From the NCBI GenBank assembly GCA_016875405.1, contig VGRJ01000039.1:1-36829 (forward strand): a DNA stretch of 36,829 bases, given 5' to 3'. The position numbers were made by a program, and so were the translations under genes. This stretch comes from Deltaproteobacteria bacterium (GTDB taxonomy: Bacteria > Myxococcota_A > Polyangia > Polyangiales > Polyangiaceae). The notes beneath the pieces are model-generated. The model had not been told where the DNA came from. It saw only the letters and a list, made by a program, of their open reading frames with translations, and ran no database searches. Of this stretch, positions 29,601 through 34,903 are shown piece after piece. Within the stretch, counting starts at the first letter, position 1. Every line of letters starts with the position of its first letter.

Positions 29601-30058
29601 GAGCTGCCGTCGCGCCGCTGGACGTTCACGCGCTGACCGACGATCGACGTAGCCCTCGCGCTGTCCACGTAGTCGATGCCGCTCGTCGAAGAGGCGCGCG
29701 CACGCAGCGCGCCGACGATCCGAGAGTGCTCGCAGCTCATGCCGCGCTTCTCGCCCGCATAGGGGAGCGTGACCGGCGCGCCTTCGTCATCGGGAAACAC
29801 CACGAAACCGCGTCCTCGCCCGAAGAACGTGTCCGTGGCTTGCGAGGCGTCCTCACCCGTGAGCTCGCGCGGGGTCAGCCCCAGCTCGCCGAGGATGCGG
29901 ACCGCTGGAGGGTGCAGCCATTCACCCGCGAAGCGCTCGCCTGCCTTGGGGTTCGCCTCGACGAGGAGGACGCTCGCCCCCCGACGCGCGAAGGCGAGCG
30001 CCGTCACGCACCCCACGGGCCCGGCGCCCGTCACCACGACGTCGTAGCGCGGTCGCAT
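26630..30058 (-). CDS. Natural fusion: squalene epoxidase + oxidosqualene (sterol) cyclase
   Basis: A 1142-residue single ORF with no internal break. Residues about 1-430 are a FAD monooxygenase of the squalene-epoxidase type: dinucleotide fold VVVTGAGPVGCVTALAFARR, and the FAD/substrate motif GDAAGHHHPLTALGMTLGF (about 290-308; eukaryotic enzymes have GDAxNMRHPLTGGGMT). Residues about 485-1130 are a triterpene cyclase with QW repeats (SQHADGSWEGED, SCQNSDGGFGSYE, QRPDGSFAGNWG, RQRPDGGWGED). Its acid motif is VSDCTAE (catalytic D863), not the DxDDTA of squalene-hopene cyclases, so it should use 2,3-oxidosqualene. C935 in YVECTAS and H642 in CHTRLIYLGM match conserved oxidosqualene cyclase residues. 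V861 equals lanosterol synthase V453 (plant cycloartenol synthase has Ile). The ATG at 30058 gives MRPRYDVVVTGAG. It starts 4 nt after squalene synthase. Product probably lanosterol-like. Confidence 0.95.
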   Translation of the reverse strand: MRPRYDVVVTGAGPVGCVTALAFARRGASVLLVEANPKAGERFAGEWLHPPAVRILGELGLTPRELTGEDASQATDTFFGRGRGFVVFPDDEGAPVTLPYAGEKRGMSCEHSRIVGALRARASSTSGIDYVDSARATSIVGQRVNVQRRDGSSSEVAAGLVVGAGGRRSVAHEALGHDVASATYSRMAGLLVEDATLPHEGYGHVFLGGPGPVLAYRVSEQHVRMCIDVPLSTPTGRGREAMLWDGYHAVLPEPFRRGFWRTLQRGEIAWAANQTRPRTSLGREGLALVGDAAGHHHPLTALGMTLGFQDALALVGAASVADYERQRLSEARVPEMLAVALYEVFADSSEECVAIRRAVYDLWRRDPAERARTMGLLACEEVAPTAFVGSFVRAVVGGARGFGREALAGGHYRHVAGVVGRLASRVRWLVEGTMRLAEPRPYALSADRAYGEALQASSAKADVALHPAAVRDAEHRAEQAGAPALALERAVRALERSQHADGSWEGEDVWCPLLAAQYAIAMRFMGVPIAARRRARILRAFEVEELAGGGFGLHEASPPYVFVTALVYVAARILGLEPNAPVLVRARAFLERAGGVIGIPTWGKFWLALAGLYEWRGVNPVLPELWALPRSLPIHPSRYYCHTRLIYLGMACLHGETFSLGDDTLVAALRRELFPEGYDAVDFGAARRALREAEIYTPPSRALELGYELLARFDERAAPDRRARLRGELRERIRFELRSTEYTCISPVSGMLDMLALHRHDPNDVDLARQLTAFEGWIWEDDVHGLRVAGARSATWDTAFALQSLAAAAPHLDVTRALERGAASLRRQQIAVAPTVGYRENDRIDPVGGFCFAGAWHGWPVSDCTAEAMLALLEAPSTHATEEELTRAARFVLSCQNSDGGFGSYEPRGTDVPLEWLNPAEMFGDSMTEHSYVECTASCVAALARFRERFPGVMGAAVEASVRRGVARIRALQRPDGSFAGNWGVHFIYGTMFGVRGLLAGGVRPQDPAVRRACRWLLARQRPDGGWGEDPRSCLEGVYHEAATSHVVQTAWAMSTLLDARDPAWDAVERAAHYLAARQLPDGSFPKEMPVGVFFHTALLDYVAYRAYFPVWALGCFVSRAGERAELARVGRSPRVAKLHRG

Positions 30059-30062
30059 GGCG

Positions 30063-31277
30063 TCAGTCGGAGGCGCGGAGACGGCTCGGCGAGAGCCCGC
30101 GACTCGAGGGGCGCGGCGGCGGGGCGACGACAGGCGCGGCGGCCCCCTGCGCCTCGCAAGCCGCGTCGTCGAACATGCCCGAACCGTAATAGCCGAACAT
30201 CCATCGCAGGTGCGTGTCGTCACCGACCGCGAGCTGCACGTCGGCGAAGGCGCGCCAGACCACCTCGCGGCTCACCTTCGGCTTCACGTCGGCCCGCAGC
30301 GCGTCTCCGCCGTGCTCGACCTCGTGCAGGGTCGCGAGCGCCAGGGCGAGCGGCACCGCGCAGAAGAGGCGCACGTCACGGCCCTCGCGCGCAGGCCAAA
30401 GGGCGGTGTACTCACGCGCGCGTCGCAGGTTGACGCGCGCCTGCGCGCAGACGTCGCCGACCACCGCCAGCGCGGCATCGCGGCGCTCTGGCGCGAGCAG
30501 CTCATCGAGCGAGACGCCATGCGCCTCGGCCCGATCCAGAGGGAGAAAACAGTCGCCTCGCGCGTGATCCTCCGCGACGTCCTTGACGATGTTGACCATC
30601 TGCAACGCGAGCCCGAAGCTCACGGCGCGCGCCCGCGTTTCGGCAAGAGCGTGCGCCGACATCGACGGGACGACCCGTTCGAACAGCGCCGTGAGGAGCT
30701 TTCCGACGGTCCCCGCGACGAAGTAGCAATAGCGCTCGAGATCGGCCATGTCGGCGATGCGGAGCCGCCCTTCTCGCGCGGCGCGCGCCGCGTACTCGCG
30801 CATGCCACGCGACATCTCGAGGATGTGTGGCCTCACCGCGGCGCGCAGCTCCGCTGGCTGCGCACGAAACACCCGAAACACTGCGCCGGCTCGCGTCGCG
30901 AGCTCGTGATCCGCCGCCGACACGTCACCAAGCGCGACGGCGACGCACTCGGACTCGAAACCCTTCGGCAGACGTGCATCGTCACCCATCAGCGCGTCGA
31001 ACTCGTCAAAGAGCGACGACCGAACACGCCACTCGACGCGCGCGTCGTCCTCGACCGTATCGACGATTCGGCACAAGAGGTACGAGACGCGCACGATCTC
31101 GCGCAGAGACTCGGGCAATGTCGCGATCGAGAGCGCGAAGGTCCGCGAGACGCGAGGCAGGACCTCCTCGCAGAACGCAAGGTCCGTCGTGAGGTCATGA
31201 CGCTCGTGCTCGGTTGGCGTGTCTGAGGCGCTGTCCGAGACGGCCCGAAACGAACCCAGGTTCTTCAGCGTGCCCAT
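30063..31277 (-). CDS. Squalene synthase (farnesyl-diphosphate farnesyltransferase)
   Basis: Product of 404 residues. Trans-isoprenyl head-to-head condensing enzyme, eukaryote-like in motif style: SRTFALSIATLPESL, first Asp-rich motif DTVEDD (D73-D78) in YLLCRIVDTVEDD, YCYFVAGTVGKLLTALF and second motif KDVAED (D233, D237) in GLALQMVNIVKDVAEDHARG, then DCFLP. The spacing and the VAGxVG signature fit squalene rather than phytoene synthase, and the neighbours (epoxidase-cyclase, HMGR) agree. There is no C-terminal membrane anchor; a Pro/Ser/Arg-rich tail replaces it. The ATG at 31277 has GAGGGGG just upstream, inside the last codons of the upstream fusion gene (13-nt overlap), so the two are translationally coupled. 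Confidence 0.93.
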   Translation of the reverse strand: MGTLKNLGSFRAVSDSASDTPTEHERHDLTTDLAFCEEVLPRVSRTFALSIATLPESLREIVRVSYLLCRIVDTVEDDARVEWRVRSSLFDEFDALMGDDARLPKGFESECVAVALGDVSAADHELATRAGAVFRVFRAQPAELRAAVRPHILEMSRGMREYAARAAREGRLRIADMADLERYCYFVAGTVGKLLTALFERVVPSMSAHALAETRARAVSFGLALQMVNIVKDVAEDHARGDCFLPLDRAEAHGVSLDELLAPERRDAALAVVGDVCAQARVNLRRAREYTALWPAREGRDVRLFCAVPLALALATLHEVEHGGDALRADVKPKVSREVVWRAFADVQLAVGDDTHLRWMFGYYGSGMFDDAACEAQGAAAPVVAPPPRPSSRGLSPSRLRASD

Positions 31278-33685
31278 GATTCCCCCTCGAAGAGCGGCTG
31301 AATTGGCTCGAGAAACAAATCGCACATGCCGCGCACGAGCCCAGCGAGCTTCGGCTGCGCCGCGACCGCCGGCACCTCGAGCGCGCGAGCCTTGCGCGCG
31401 AGCATTTCGTCGAGGGCGAAGCGGAGCGATCCCGTACGGCGGAGGAGCTCGATCGCGCGGTCGATCTCAGCCTGGCTCGTCCCGGCTCGCTCGCGGTCGA
31501 GAAGCTCGCGTAGCCAGAGTGCATCCTCGCGTGCCGCATGAGTGAGTGCGTGGACGACGAGCGCGCTGCGTTTGCCCTCGGCAATGTCGCTGCCGCGTTG
31601 CTCGCGTCCCTTCTCGCCGTAGAGGTCGAGCGTGTCGTCTTGGACCTGGAACAGCACGCCCATGTGACGCGCCGCCTCTGCGAGCCCGGCACTGACCTCG
31701 TCAGGCGCATCGGAGAGAGTCGCCGCGCCAGCCATCGGGAGCGCGAAGAGCCCGCTGGTCTTGCCCTCGACCATCGCGAAGTAATCGTCGAGCGACACCT
31801 CCGCCATGCCCTTCAGCTGGAACTCGCGCTCCTGTCCATCGATCACTCGGAGCGTCTCCACAAGCAGCGTCTTGGCGGCCTGCTCGCGACGGAGCGCGGG
31901 CGCGTCGAACTCCTGCGCGAGGAGCACGGCGTAGTAGAACATTGCGTCTCCGAGGTTCACGGCCTGAGGCACGCCGTAGCGGTTCCACACGGTCATGCGA
32001 CCGCGTCGAAACATGTCGCCGTCCTGCAAATCGTCGTGGACGAGCGTCGCGTTGTGCAGCATTTCACATGCGGCGCCGAACGGCACCATGCGCTTCGCCT
32101 CGACGCCGAGCGCCTCGCCCACGAGCAGCGGCAGGAGCGCGCGCAGGCGCTTGCCCCCGGTCTCGAGGTGGTAATCGCACATCTCGACGAGGGTCGAGCC
32201 CTCGGGCGTCGTCGTACGGAGGAGGCTCCCGATGAGGGCCTCCATTTCAGGCCAGTAGACGTCGCGAAGCACCCGGAAACGCTCGAGCAGTGCGCCCGTG
32301 CTCGCAGCGTACAGCGGAGGGATGGTGCTCGCCGCTCGTCGCTGGCTCTCGAGCTCAGCGAGGACTTCCTTCGCGGCCGCGAGACTCACGTTGCGGCGCG
32401 CCGCGATCCGCTCCGCCACCTCGTGAACGAGCTCGCCCGACGCGCCCGCCTCGACGGCGACGTTTCGTGCGTGCATGCGCATGTGGCCGCGCTGAATGCC
32501 CTCGGCGACCATCGCGCGAAGCGCGCTCAGGTTCTGCGCGAGGCCGACCGCCGCCGTGACGGCCGCCAACTCCGCGGCAGCGTTCACGTGCGCCACGCGG
32601 CGCGCGACCTTCACCGTGGGATGAATGCGCGCGACACCGCCGACCGTCCCGACGGCGAGCGGCATCTCGAGCTCGCCGACGAGGGACTCGCCGTCGACAC
32701 GCCAGCGAGCGAGCGCGGTGTAGCGACCGCTCCTCGCGGCGAAGGCGTGCGCTCCTGCTTCGACCGCACGCCAGTCCTGCCCGAACGCGAGCAGCACCGA
32801 GTCGACGCCGTTCATGATGCCCTTGTTGTGCGTCGCGGCGCGGTAAGGGTCGCGCTCGGCGAACACCGAGGCCTCCTCGATGCCGCGCGCGAGCTCGGCG
32901 GGGCTGTCGCAGCCGCGGCCCTCGAGCGCGGCGAACGGCACGCGACCGCGCGCTCGGACCATGCGTCGATCGGTCAGGTTCGTGAGGATTTTCAGGCCGT
33001 CGCGTCCACCCGTGAGCTCGAGGATTCGCGGCGCGAGGCGCTCGCACATGGTGTTGATCGCGTTGGCGCCCATCGCGTCTCGGACGTCGACGACGACGTG
33101 CACGATCATCATCGGCCCGCACGGATCCGCGAACCTCCCCTCGGTCTCGGCGAGGGGCGCGAGGTGGTGGACCTCGACGTCGATCGCGCCGCCTCCCGCT
33201 GCGACGAGGCTCGGGTGTCCCTCGTTCGCGAGCGCGAGGAGCTCGGCCTTCGCGTCGAGCACCCGGCCCTCGGCGACCGCGGCGTCGGGCACGTCGAGCA
33301 GCTGGATCTGTCCGACCATATGAGGCGGCGTGACCTCGCACGTGACTCCTCCTCCCGCGCGGAGGAGCTTCGCGGCGAAGCTCGCCGCGGCGACGACGCT
33401 CGGCTCCTCGATCGCCATCGGCACGAGGCAGTCACGGCCGTCGACCCTCAGGTTGACGCAAAGCCCGAGCGGCAGGCTCATGACGCCGAGCACGTTCTCG
33501 ACCATCCGGTTCGCCTGCTCGTCGGTGAGGCCGCCGTCGGCGGACAACACGTCGAGCTCGCGCTCCGACAGCCCGATCACCTTGGCGAGGCGCGCGCGTC
33601 GGTCTTCGAGCGTCAGGCGGTGAAATCCGCTGAGTTCGCTCGTGGCGAGCGTGGGGTTCACGTCGGTGGTTTGCTGGGTCGTCAT
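31265..33685 (-). CDS. Natural fusion: class II HMG-CoA reductase + trans-polyprenyl (farnesyl) diphosphate synthase
   Basis: An 806-residue single ORF. Residues about 15-448 are a soluble class II HMG-CoA reductase: MVENVLGVMSLPLG, PMAIEEPSVVAAAS (catalytic Glu about 93), AMGANAINTM, NKGIMNGVD (K288), GQDWRAVEAGAHA (D304), and RGHMRMHARN with H401/H405. All four Pseudomonas mevalonii catalytic residues are conserved and near-identically spaced. Residues about 455-800 are a trans-prenyltransferase: GGKRLRALLPLLVG, first DDxxD in HDDLQDGDMFRRGRMT (D551-D555), KTSGLFALP, and second DDxxD in FQVQDDTLDLYG (D683-D687). The first motif lacks the two-residue insertion of bacterial IspA-type FPP synthases, so chain length is not certain; the adjacent squalene synthase favours FPP. 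The ATG overlaps the fni stop (ATGA). This joins mevalonate formation to prenyl elongation in one chain. Confidence 0.95.
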   Translation of the reverse strand: MTTQQTTDVNPTLATSELSGFHRLTLEDRRARLAKVIGLSERELDVLSADGGLTDEQANRMVENVLGVMSLPLGLCVNLRVDGRDCLVPMAIEEPSVVAAASFAAKLLRAGGGVTCEVTPPHMVGQIQLLDVPDAAVAEGRVLDAKAELLALANEGHPSLVAAGGGAIDVEVHHLAPLAETEGRFADPCGPMMIVHVVVDVRDAMGANAINTMCERLAPRILELTGGRDGLKILTNLTDRRMVRARGRVPFAALEGRGCDSPAELARGIEEASVFAERDPYRAATHNKGIMNGVDSVLLAFGQDWRAVEAGAHAFAARSGRYTALARWRVDGESLVGELEMPLAVGTVGGVARIHPTVKVARRVAHVNAAAELAAVTAAVGLAQNLSALRAMVAEGIQRGHMRMHARNVAVEAGASGELVHEVAERIAARRNVSLAAAKEVLAELESQRRAASTIPPLYAASTGALLERFRVLRDVYWPEMEALIGSLLRTTTPEGSTLVEMCDYHLETGGKRLRALLPLLVGEALGVEAKRMVPFGAACEMLHNATLVHDDLQDGDMFRRGRMTVWNRYGVPQAVNLGDAMFYYAVLLAQEFDAPALRREQAAKTLLVETLRVIDGQEREFQLKGMAEVSLDDYFAMVEGKTSGLFALPMAGAATLSDAPDEVSAGLAEAARHMGVLFQVQDDTLDLYGEKGREQRGSDIAEGKRSALVVHALTHAAREDALWLRELLDRERAGTSQAEIDRAIELLRRTGSLRFALDEMLARKARALEVPAVAAQPKLAGLVRGMCDLFLEPIQPLFEGESWAR

Positions 33686-34815
33686 GGGGTGCTCGGCAGG
33701 TCGAGGCGAACGGGCGCGCCGCCGCGTCCGAGGAGGCGGGACTGGCGGAGCGCGCGAAGATCCTTCGCGCCCGCGCAGAACGCGATCACGCGCAGCTCGT
33801 GGAGGAGCGTCTCGAGCGCGCGGACGCAGGAGGCCTCGCTGTCCTCGGCGGCCTCGAGCAGAGGTCGCGCGAGGGCGACGAGGTCCGCGCCGAGGGCGAG
33901 CGCGACGGCGACGTCCATGCCGGTGCGGACACCGCCCGACGCGACGACGAGCCGCTCACCGAAGGCTGCGCGGCAGTTGCGGATCGAGGTCGCCGTCGGG
34001 ACGCCGAAGCCGGCGAGGCGGCGCCCGATCTCGGCCTGGATGCTCCCGCTCGGCGCGCGATGGCTCTCGACACGAGCCCACGAAGTCCCCCCGACGCCCG
34101 AGCACTCGATGCCCGCGAAGGGCAGCCGCGAGAGCTTCGCCGCGGCGCGGCCCGAGATCCCGGCGCCGACCTCCTTCGCGAGGACGGGCACCCCGATCAC
34201 GGGGATGAACGCCTCGAGCTTCTCGGCGAGGCCGGAGAAGCGCGTATCGCCCTCGGGCTGAATCGCCTCTTGGAGGGCGTTGAGGTGCACGTTGAGCGCG
34301 TCGGCGCCGACGGCCTCGAGCGCTCGGCGGATCGCGTCTGCGTCGACGCCGTAGTTGAGCTGGACGGCGCCTACATTGCCAAAGAGGAGCGGCAGCTCCG
34401 GCGCGACGTCTCGCACGCGGTACGAGCCGGTAGCGGCGGGGTCGACGATCATCGGTCGCTGCGAGCCGAGGGCCATCGCGACCCCGGCCTGCTGCGCCGC
34501 GCGGGCGAGGCGGCGGTTGAGTTCGCCGGCGCGCGACGTCCCGCCGGTCATCGCACCGACGACGATCGGGGCGGCGAGGCGGCGACCGAACACCGTCACC
34601 GATAGATCCACCTCGTCGAGATCGAGCTCCGGCAGCGCGTCGTACTCGAGCGAGTATGCATCGAGTCCGCTCGCGACCAGCGACCCGACGTCCTCGTCTA
34701 GGCAGACGTCGAGATGGTGGTCCTTACGACGAGCGAGCGCTTCGGCCTGCGCCTCCGAGGCAGCGCCTGGGAGGGTCGGAGTGGGCACAGCCTCGAGCTC
34801 GGATCGCGTCGTCAT
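33682..34815 (-). CDS. fni: Type 2 isopentenyl-diphosphate isomerase (FMN)
   Basis: Product of 377 residues. FMN/NAD(P)H-dependent enzyme interconverting IPP and DMAPP. Family motifs are ARRKDHHLDVCLDEDV, the phosphate/flavin loop VVGAMTGGTSRAGELNRRLA, MALGSQRPMI, LFGNVGAVQLNYG, the catalytic-region NVHLNALQEAIQPEGD, GAGISGRAA, GVGGTSWARVES and the FMN-phosphate site VASGGVRTGMDVA. The first gene of the sterol operon; its stop overlaps the HMGR-fusion ATG. The ATG at 34815 is chosen because the longer frame to 34893 would run through the promoter region; an AGAGACC lies just upstream. It begins with a short Thr/Pro-rich leader not in all homologues. Very secure family. Confidence 0.96.
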   Translation of the reverse strand: MTTRSELEAVPTPTLPGAASEAQAEALARRKDHHLDVCLDEDVGSLVASGLDAYSLEYDALPELDLDEVDLSVTVFGRRLAAPIVVGAMTGGTSRAGELNRRLARAAQQAGVAMALGSQRPMIVDPAATGSYRVRDVAPELPLLFGNVGAVQLNYGVDADAIRRALEAVGADALNVHLNALQEAIQPEGDTRFSGLAEKLEAFIPVIGVPVLAKEVGAGISGRAAAKLSRLPFAGIECSGVGGTSWARVESHRAPSGSIQAEIGRRLAGFGVPTATSIRNCRAAFGERLVVASGGVRTGMDVAVALALGADLVALARPLLEAAEDSEASCVRALETLLHELRVIAFCAGAKDLRALRQSRLLGRGGAPVRLDLPSTP

Positions 34816-34838
34816 GGTCTCTGTGGCTCGTAGCACGG

Positions 34839-34853
34839 CCCCTCTACGAGGGG
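34839..34853 (-). promoter_or_regulatory. Short hairpin in the sterol operon leader
   Basis: CCCCTC-TAC-GAGGGG, a perfect 6-bp stem with a 3-nt loop about 24-38 nt upstream of the fni ATG, inside the predicted 5' leader. It may influence translation or mRNA stability, or be chance; no riboswitch class is recognised. Confidence 0.3.
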
Positions 34854-34874
34854 TCGGGCGCGACGAGGGGGCGG

Positions 34875-34903
34875 ACCCTAGCCGATGCGACACGACCTGT
34901 GAA
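34875..34903 (-). promoter_or_regulatory. Candidate sigma-70-type promoter of the sterol operon
   Basis: On the minus strand, TTCACA (34903-34898) is separated by exactly 17 nt from TAGGGT (34880-34875). This gives one mismatch to the -35 consensus and three matches in the -10. It predicts a start near 34868 and a leader of about 53 nt before fni. The upstream kinase gene stops at 34987, so the operon has its own 171-bp promoter region. The -10 is weak. Confidence 0.4.

Follow-up and report, generated by a model that had tools for sequence, protein, structure and literature searches.

The window, a 36,829-nucleotide stretch of DNA from a Deltaproteobacteria bacterium of the Polyangiaceae (GenBank assembly GCA_016875405.1, contig VGRJ01000039.1, positions 1 to 36,829 of the forward strand), contains one gene that encodes both a complete class II 3-hydroxy-3-methylglutaryl-CoA reductase (HMGR) and a complete trans-prenyl diphosphate synthase (PPS). 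The catalytic motifs of both domains are intact, and the two domains are fused in this way across several genera. The gene overlaps the end of the upstream type 2 isopentenyl diphosphate (IPP) isomerase gene (IDI2) and shows the following features:

31265..33685, minus strand: HMGR-PPS fusion coding sequence, 806 aa; its ATG start overlaps the IDI2 stop as ATGA
32468..33607, minus strand: class II HMGR domain, residues 27-406, with catalytic E93, K288, D304 and H401
31445..32191, minus strand: polyprenyl synthetase domain, residues 499-747 (Pfam, Foldseek)
32021..32035, minus strand: first aspartate-rich motif, D551-D-L-Q-D555, residues 551-555
31625..31639, minus strand: second aspartate-rich motif, D683-D-T-L-D687, residues 683-687
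32291..32353, minus strand: junction or linker, residues about 445-465, variable and with a dip in predicted local confidence (pLDDT)

The 806-aa open reading frame (ORF) shows no internal stops. Pfam gives only two domains and no thiolase domain: HMG-CoA_red at residues 27-406 (341.9 bits, cut-off 27; profile positions 3-368 of 368) and polyprenyl_synt (PF00348) at residues 499-747 (190.4 bits, cut-off 27; profile positions 4-250 of 251). A first-pass annotation, made from the sequence alone, had described a class II HMGR with Glu93, K288, D304 and H401, followed in frame by a trans-prenyltransferase with two DDxxD motifs. Both parts of that description hold, as the HMGR half reaches 361.3 bits with the NCBIfam class II model TIGR00532 (cut-off 259.95) and the PPS half carries DDLQD and DDTLD. 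The four HMGR residues and both DDxxD motifs are unchanged across 8 aligned fusions, and the KT and GGKR motifs, like both DDxxD, are intact in the PPS half of the window and of all close relatives. AlphaFold2 models the fusion as two confident domains (mean pLDDT 85.4, pTM 0.56) separated by a linker in which pLDDT falls to about 54 (residues 451-460). The best Foldseek matches of the HMGR half are 6dio (50% identity) and the Pseudomonas mevalonii HMGR 1qax/9dcp (46%), with the class II fold recovered against 6dio and 1qax at TMt 0.82-0.91, and the PPS half matches the geranylgeranyl diphosphate (GGPP) synthase 6kd7 at TMt 0.88. The HMGR half is predicted to form mevalonate with NAD(P)H.

The HMGR-PPS fusion is a real, conserved domain architecture. 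The family search found it at full length and in a single frame in 8 of 108 genomes, the window genome counted: four belong to g1 (G000, G093, G095 and G096), two to g35 (G051 and G052) and two to g15 (G019 and G020), and the seven other proteins are 65-81% identical to that of the window over their whole length. A scan of named genomes added a ninth in L072 (JANQQN010000400.1, Myxococcota metagenome-assembled genome (MAG) IP29b_bin.29; 61% identity), and the full-length fusion thus spans nine genomes of at least three genera. One more HMGR-PPS fusion belongs to family f2 (G108). Since the same open frame is found in 8 of the 108 family genomes and in L072, the fusion is due neither to chance nor to a frameshift; the latter, which the first-pass annotation had named as a possible refutation, is not borne out in any of the eight other assemblies. 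The junction (about residues 441-470) varies among the fusions, all its length changes are in frame, and its substitutions are biased to third codon positions, as in coding sequence. Between the window and G095, the ratio of non-synonymous to synonymous differences (pN/pS) is 0.17 in the HMGR half and 0.22 in the PPS half, which places both under purifying selection. About 30 further HMGR loci from the family and the order served as controls; they end right after HMGR or have a separate PPS gene. Two kinds of long frame were rejected as fusions: the 833-846 aa HMGR frames of Sorangium-sized genomes, which run on out of frame across a separate PPS gene upstream, and a 2,312-aa frame in L165, which reads through other genes.

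The fusion gene is the second gene of an operon with the order IDI2, HMGR-PPS, squalene synthase (SQS) and squalene epoxidase-oxidosqualene cyclase (SE-OSC):

33682..34893, minus strand: type 2 IPP isomerase (IDI2/fni), first operon gene, likely ATG at 34815; TIGR02151, 347.9 bits against a cut-off of 281.3
30063..31277, minus strand: squalene synthase, third operon gene; PF00494, 166.7 bits
26630..30223, minus strand: SE-OSC fusion, probable ATG at 30058; PF08491, PF13249 and PF13243 in one ORF

SQS overlaps the 3' end of the fusion gene by 13 nt, with GAGGGGG upstream of its ATG, and SE-OSC starts a few bases after SQS. The operon contains two fusions, as first annotated. SE-OSC scores 717 bits with TIGR03463, under the cut-off of 851 though this is by far its best family, and passes the general model TIGR01787. 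The SE-OSC fusion is also present in G051, G107, L072 and a Sandaracinaceae-like family (L161-L164, L166 and L167).

Profile searches of the whole window genome (99% complete) found a single HMGR, the fused one, and no 1-deoxy-D-xylulose 5-phosphate reductoisomerase of the methylerythritol phosphate pathway, an enzyme that the control search found in 10 of 14 genomes. Because of these two results, the fused HMGR would be the sole entry to isoprenoids and is probably essential. Contig C67 carries mevalonate kinase and diphosphomevalonate decarboxylase genes, both over the cut-off, and a phosphomevalonate kinase-like gene. No confident HMG-CoA synthase was found in the genome with PF08540, PF01154 and TIGR00748 (best sub-threshold match C65:23307-23798), and leucine breakdown or an unrecognised synthase may supply the HMG-CoA. 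The genome contains four PPS genes: the fused one, one of long-chain type on C100, and two on C49 and C60, which show the same LHNATLVHDD motif as the fused PPS and are near phytoene-synthase-like genes. These last two loci are very similar to each other (L193:2956-6570, plus strand, on C60; L194:2550-6660, minus strand, on C49). Only the fused PPS adjoins a squalene synthase.

The likely explanation of this arrangement is that the sterol operon encodes a bifunctional enzyme, which ties mevalonate supply to farnesyl diphosphate (FPP) supply. Both halves would be active, the HMGR half providing the cell's mevalonate and the PPS half an allylic diphosphate for the SQS of the next, overlapping gene; FPP is the likely product because no other PPS is beside a squalene synthase. 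An ancestral operon of the order IDI2-HMGR-PPS-(SQS), in which the stop codon that separated HMGR from PPS was lost, is the probable origin of the fusion, and its gain was probably a fixed 1:1 stoichiometry and the co-assembly of two homodimeric enzymes as a scaffold or metabolon. The two steps are not consecutive in the pathway, as the first-pass annotation correctly stated, so the gain is probably not the direct hand-over of an intermediate. Functional coupling of the entry and exit steps, channelling or regulation included, can be put forward as a hypothesis. Three observations weigh against the bifunctional sterol-operon enzyme. The PPS half scores far below the FPP synthase models (NF045485, 111.7 against 275; NF007877, 63.1 against 321), and it is under the cut-off of every chain-length equivalog of NCBIfam; it is therefore not filed as a member of the FPP synthase family and is argued only to work like one. 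In the congeners G095, G096 and G093, the next downstream gene is on the opposite strand and no SQS adjoins the fusion, so that the sterol link is not universal. The PPS fusion is also dispensable, because G107 and the Sandaracinaceae-like family show no PPS between HMGR and the following domain.

The relatives show a graded series of fusions. HMGR-PPS-SQS is found in G019 (L037), in which the contig ends after SQS. HMGR-PPS-SQS-SDR, with a short-chain dehydrogenase/reductase (SDR) as fourth domain, is found in L072:1017-5753 (plus strand) as one 1,579-aa frame with all four domains confirmed by Pfam, followed by a Rieske oxygenase gene and then by the SE-OSC fusion; much of the sterol route is packed there into three ORFs. 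G051 (L035) has HMGR-PPS and a separate SQS-SDR fusion. G107 (L039) and G106 (L176) have HMGR-SQS-SDR without PPS, and six genomes of family f12 (L161-L164, L166 and L167) have HMGR-SDR, G181 among them (a single contig of 10,327,335 bp). The HMGR-SDR genes in near-complete chromosomes are L161:7433-10135 (minus strand) and L162:7994-11821 (plus strand). By their context, the SDR and Rieske proteins of the relatives would be of the SdmB/SdmA type. The cultured Sandaracinus amylolyticus makes cholesterol (PMC12004948). In G108, of another family, the HMGR of the HMGR-PPS fusion lacks its C-terminal flap and an SQS-hopene cyclase fusion follows directly (squalene synthase-squalene-hopene cyclase, L170:5600-8869, plus strand).

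In the HMGR trees, computed without the long-branched G106, the fused HMGRs of this series form one clade of 22 rows (support 100/99), whose sister group contains the unfused HMGRs of G219, G220 and G222, with the ordinary myxobacterial HMGRs outside. The branching inside the fused clade is poorly resolved. G208, of another family of the class, is inside it with weak support and encodes IDI2, HMGR and PPS in separate genes that lie side by side, next to a hopene cyclase gene. Its HMGR-PPS boundary contains a TAG stop and then the Shine-Dalgarno (SD)-like AGGGGATAGG ahead of an ATG, a precursor-like arrangement that would turn into the fusion if a single stop codon were lost; as G208 is nested in the fused clade with weak support, it could be ancestral or secondarily split. 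In G016, HMGR is followed in frame by the remnant of a PPS, while a different contig carries a stand-alone PPS; the fusion is apparently being dismantled there (MAG contamination 9%). A phylum-wide search found HMGR-PPS also in G516 (f71), G362 and G392 (both f37), and G541 (f72), a second set with the following loci:

L200:7057-9813, minus strand: HMGR-PPS with decayed DDxxD
L201:7921-10539, minus strand: HMGR-PPS with decayed DDxxD
L202:3-1931, plus strand: HMGR-PPS with decayed DDxxD
L203:1-2145, plus strand: HMGR-PPS with decayed DDxxD

The HMGRs of the second set form a separate clade (100/100). The approximately unbiased (AU) test rejects a single clade for all the fused HMGRs (p 2.6e-6), whereas a single clade for the fused PPS domains is not rejected (p 0.30). 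The PPS domains of both sets may therefore share a source, and either HMGR and PPS were paired on at least two occasions or the pairing was lost several times.

This history bears on whether the two halves work independently, the fusion being neutral or driven by expression, without functional coupling. Such independence is a real possibility, although it falls short of being probable: the HMGR and PPS steps are separated in the pathway, the linker is flexible and variable, the PPS module is missing or replaced in related HMGR fusions, and both enzymes are encoded by adjacent, separate genes in the distant G208. However, the same HMGR lineage is repeatedly fused with different pathway partners, and the presence of HMGR-PPS in two HMGR clades goes beyond what an idle loss of a stop codon would give.

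That the product of the PPS half is GGPP or a longer chain instead of FPP, and serves other isoprenoids, is doubtful but has several points in its favour. The nature of the residue at position -5 before the first DDxxD, aromatic or not, is an indicator of chain length. In the fusion it is Ala, not aromatic, and, together with the scores for the FPP synthase models, this makes longer products possible. The top NCBIfam scores belong to a generic PPS model (family 2 encapsulin cargo polyprenyl transferase NF041169, 181.5 against a cut-off of 450) and to IdsA and GGPP synthase models (GGPP synthase NF041003, 138.1 against 500). The nearest structures are GGPP synthases, and the two paralogues with the same motif are the ones near phytoene-synthase-like genes. 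Against this, the SQS gene overlaps the fusion in the window, PPS and SQS are themselves fused in L037 and L072, and a separate PPS of long-chain type is available on C100.

In all four fusions of the second set the aspartate-rich motifs of PPS are broken (KDaaD, DDaeN or DDlqQ, with DE, YE or DQ in the second motif) and KT is changed to RT or RI. Their HMGR halves keep the catalytic residues as far as the sequence extends, L202 and L203 being truncated by the start of their contigs. The PPS-half pN/pS between G362 and G392, the one comparable pair on which purifying selection on the decayed PPS rests, is 0.21, within the 0.15-0.22 of motif-intact fusions that have diverged to a similar degree. 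G106 presents the reverse situation (L176:1375-5232, minus strand): its HMGR half has lost E, K, D and H and yet is in frame with an intact SQS-SDR, and a second HMGR is found elsewhere in its genome. Because non-catalytic halves are retained, in few genomes, the physical link itself may matter, as a scaffold or sensor. The PPS half could accordingly serve mainly to sense prenyl diphosphates and control HMGR by built-in feedback, or as a scaffold for dimerisation, catalysis being of secondary importance. In the window this seems unlikely, since both DDxxD, KT and GGKR are kept there and in all close relatives, and G106 and the second set belong to different lineages. A broader and equally tentative proposal is that Myxococcota evolved, at least twice, an HMGR, the first committed enzyme of the pathway, with a built-in PPS domain as product sensor or scaffold, active and extended in chains of up to four enzymes in one lineage and turned into a dead but maintained regulatory domain in the other.

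It is very improbable that the gene of the window yields separate polypeptides by internal initiation or proteolysis. The low-confidence linker at 451-460 and the possible starts GTG472 and ATG481 would allow it, but inspection of the junction found no SD before GTG472, ATG481 or ATG502, and ATG481 is replaced by Ile or Val in some relatives. The first-pass annotation had also considered that other strains might show separate genes with a stop and a ribosome-binding site; this is true of the distant G208 only, where the operon seems to be present in its unfused form, so that G208 does not look like a correction of the window gene. An assembly or sequencing error that joined two genes has a negligible probability: the window and most of its relatives are draft MAGs, but eight further assemblies share the frame with in-frame indels only, and related HMGR-SDR fusions are present in the near-complete chromosomes of G181 (one contig) and G182 (two contigs).

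HMGR is the point at which isoprenoid and sterol synthesis is classically controlled. The claim that no such fusion had been described stands after full-text literature searches: no description of HMGR fused to PPS, SQS or SDR was found in open-access full text, a search that did not extend to most subscription articles, to bioRxiv preprints or to databases of protein domains. Among described HMGR fusions, the closest is MvaE of enterococci, a thiolase-HMGR (PMC10070635) and also a natural two-domain protein that joins a class II HMGR to another enzyme of the mevalonate route. MvaE, however, joins early steps and has HMGR at its C-terminus, whereas the window fusion has an N-terminal HMGR, a partner acting several enzymes later and no thiolase. 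The stand-alone class II HMGRs of Delftia (6dio) and P. mevalonii (1qax) share fold, catalytic residues and 46-50% identity with the HMGR half, but stop after the C-terminal flap, where the window protein continues into PPS. The stand-alone short-chain and GGPP synthases 6kd7 and 5jfq share the all-alpha fold, the two DDxxD, GGKR and KT with the PPS half, which differs in its N-terminal HMGR extension and has no assigned chain length. PMC10070321 mentions fused homologues of squalene monooxygenase and oxidosqualene cyclase, which are, like the one in the window operon, bacterial sterol-enzyme fusions; these join consecutive steps and had already been noticed, whereas HMGR-PPS is unmentioned there. 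SdmA and SdmB, the sterol C-4 demethylation enzymes, are described as separate proteins (PMC10202945), and the Rieske and SDR genes beside or fused to the HMGR of the relatives look of this type, but SDR fusion to HMGR or SQS is unmentioned in that paper. Two-domain fusions of pathway enzymes are already known; apparently new are the HMGR-PPS pairing, the series that reaches as many as four enzymes and the conservation of a PPS half that is dead.

The carriers of the fusion are a group of mostly uncultured myxobacteria, and it has been suggested that eukaryotes may have acquired sterol synthesis from their phylum, Myxococcota (PMC12004948). With HMGR joined to PPS and, in relatives, also to SQS and a dehydrogenase of sterol type, bacteria would have an assembly chain for sterols, and such a natural multi-enzyme fusion would offer a ready template for terpenoid engineering. 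With a PPS half that is dead and yet conserved, the idea that isoprenoids feed back directly on a soluble HMGR becomes open to testing.

Two minor observations concern other HMGR loci. The HMGR-SDR linker of L161 and L162 is rich in Pro, Thr and Ser and contains Met codons, so internal initiation is possible there. L169:1580-3865 (plus strand) shows an HMGR followed by about 370 C-terminal residues without a Pfam match, which could be a further fusion or a frameshift.

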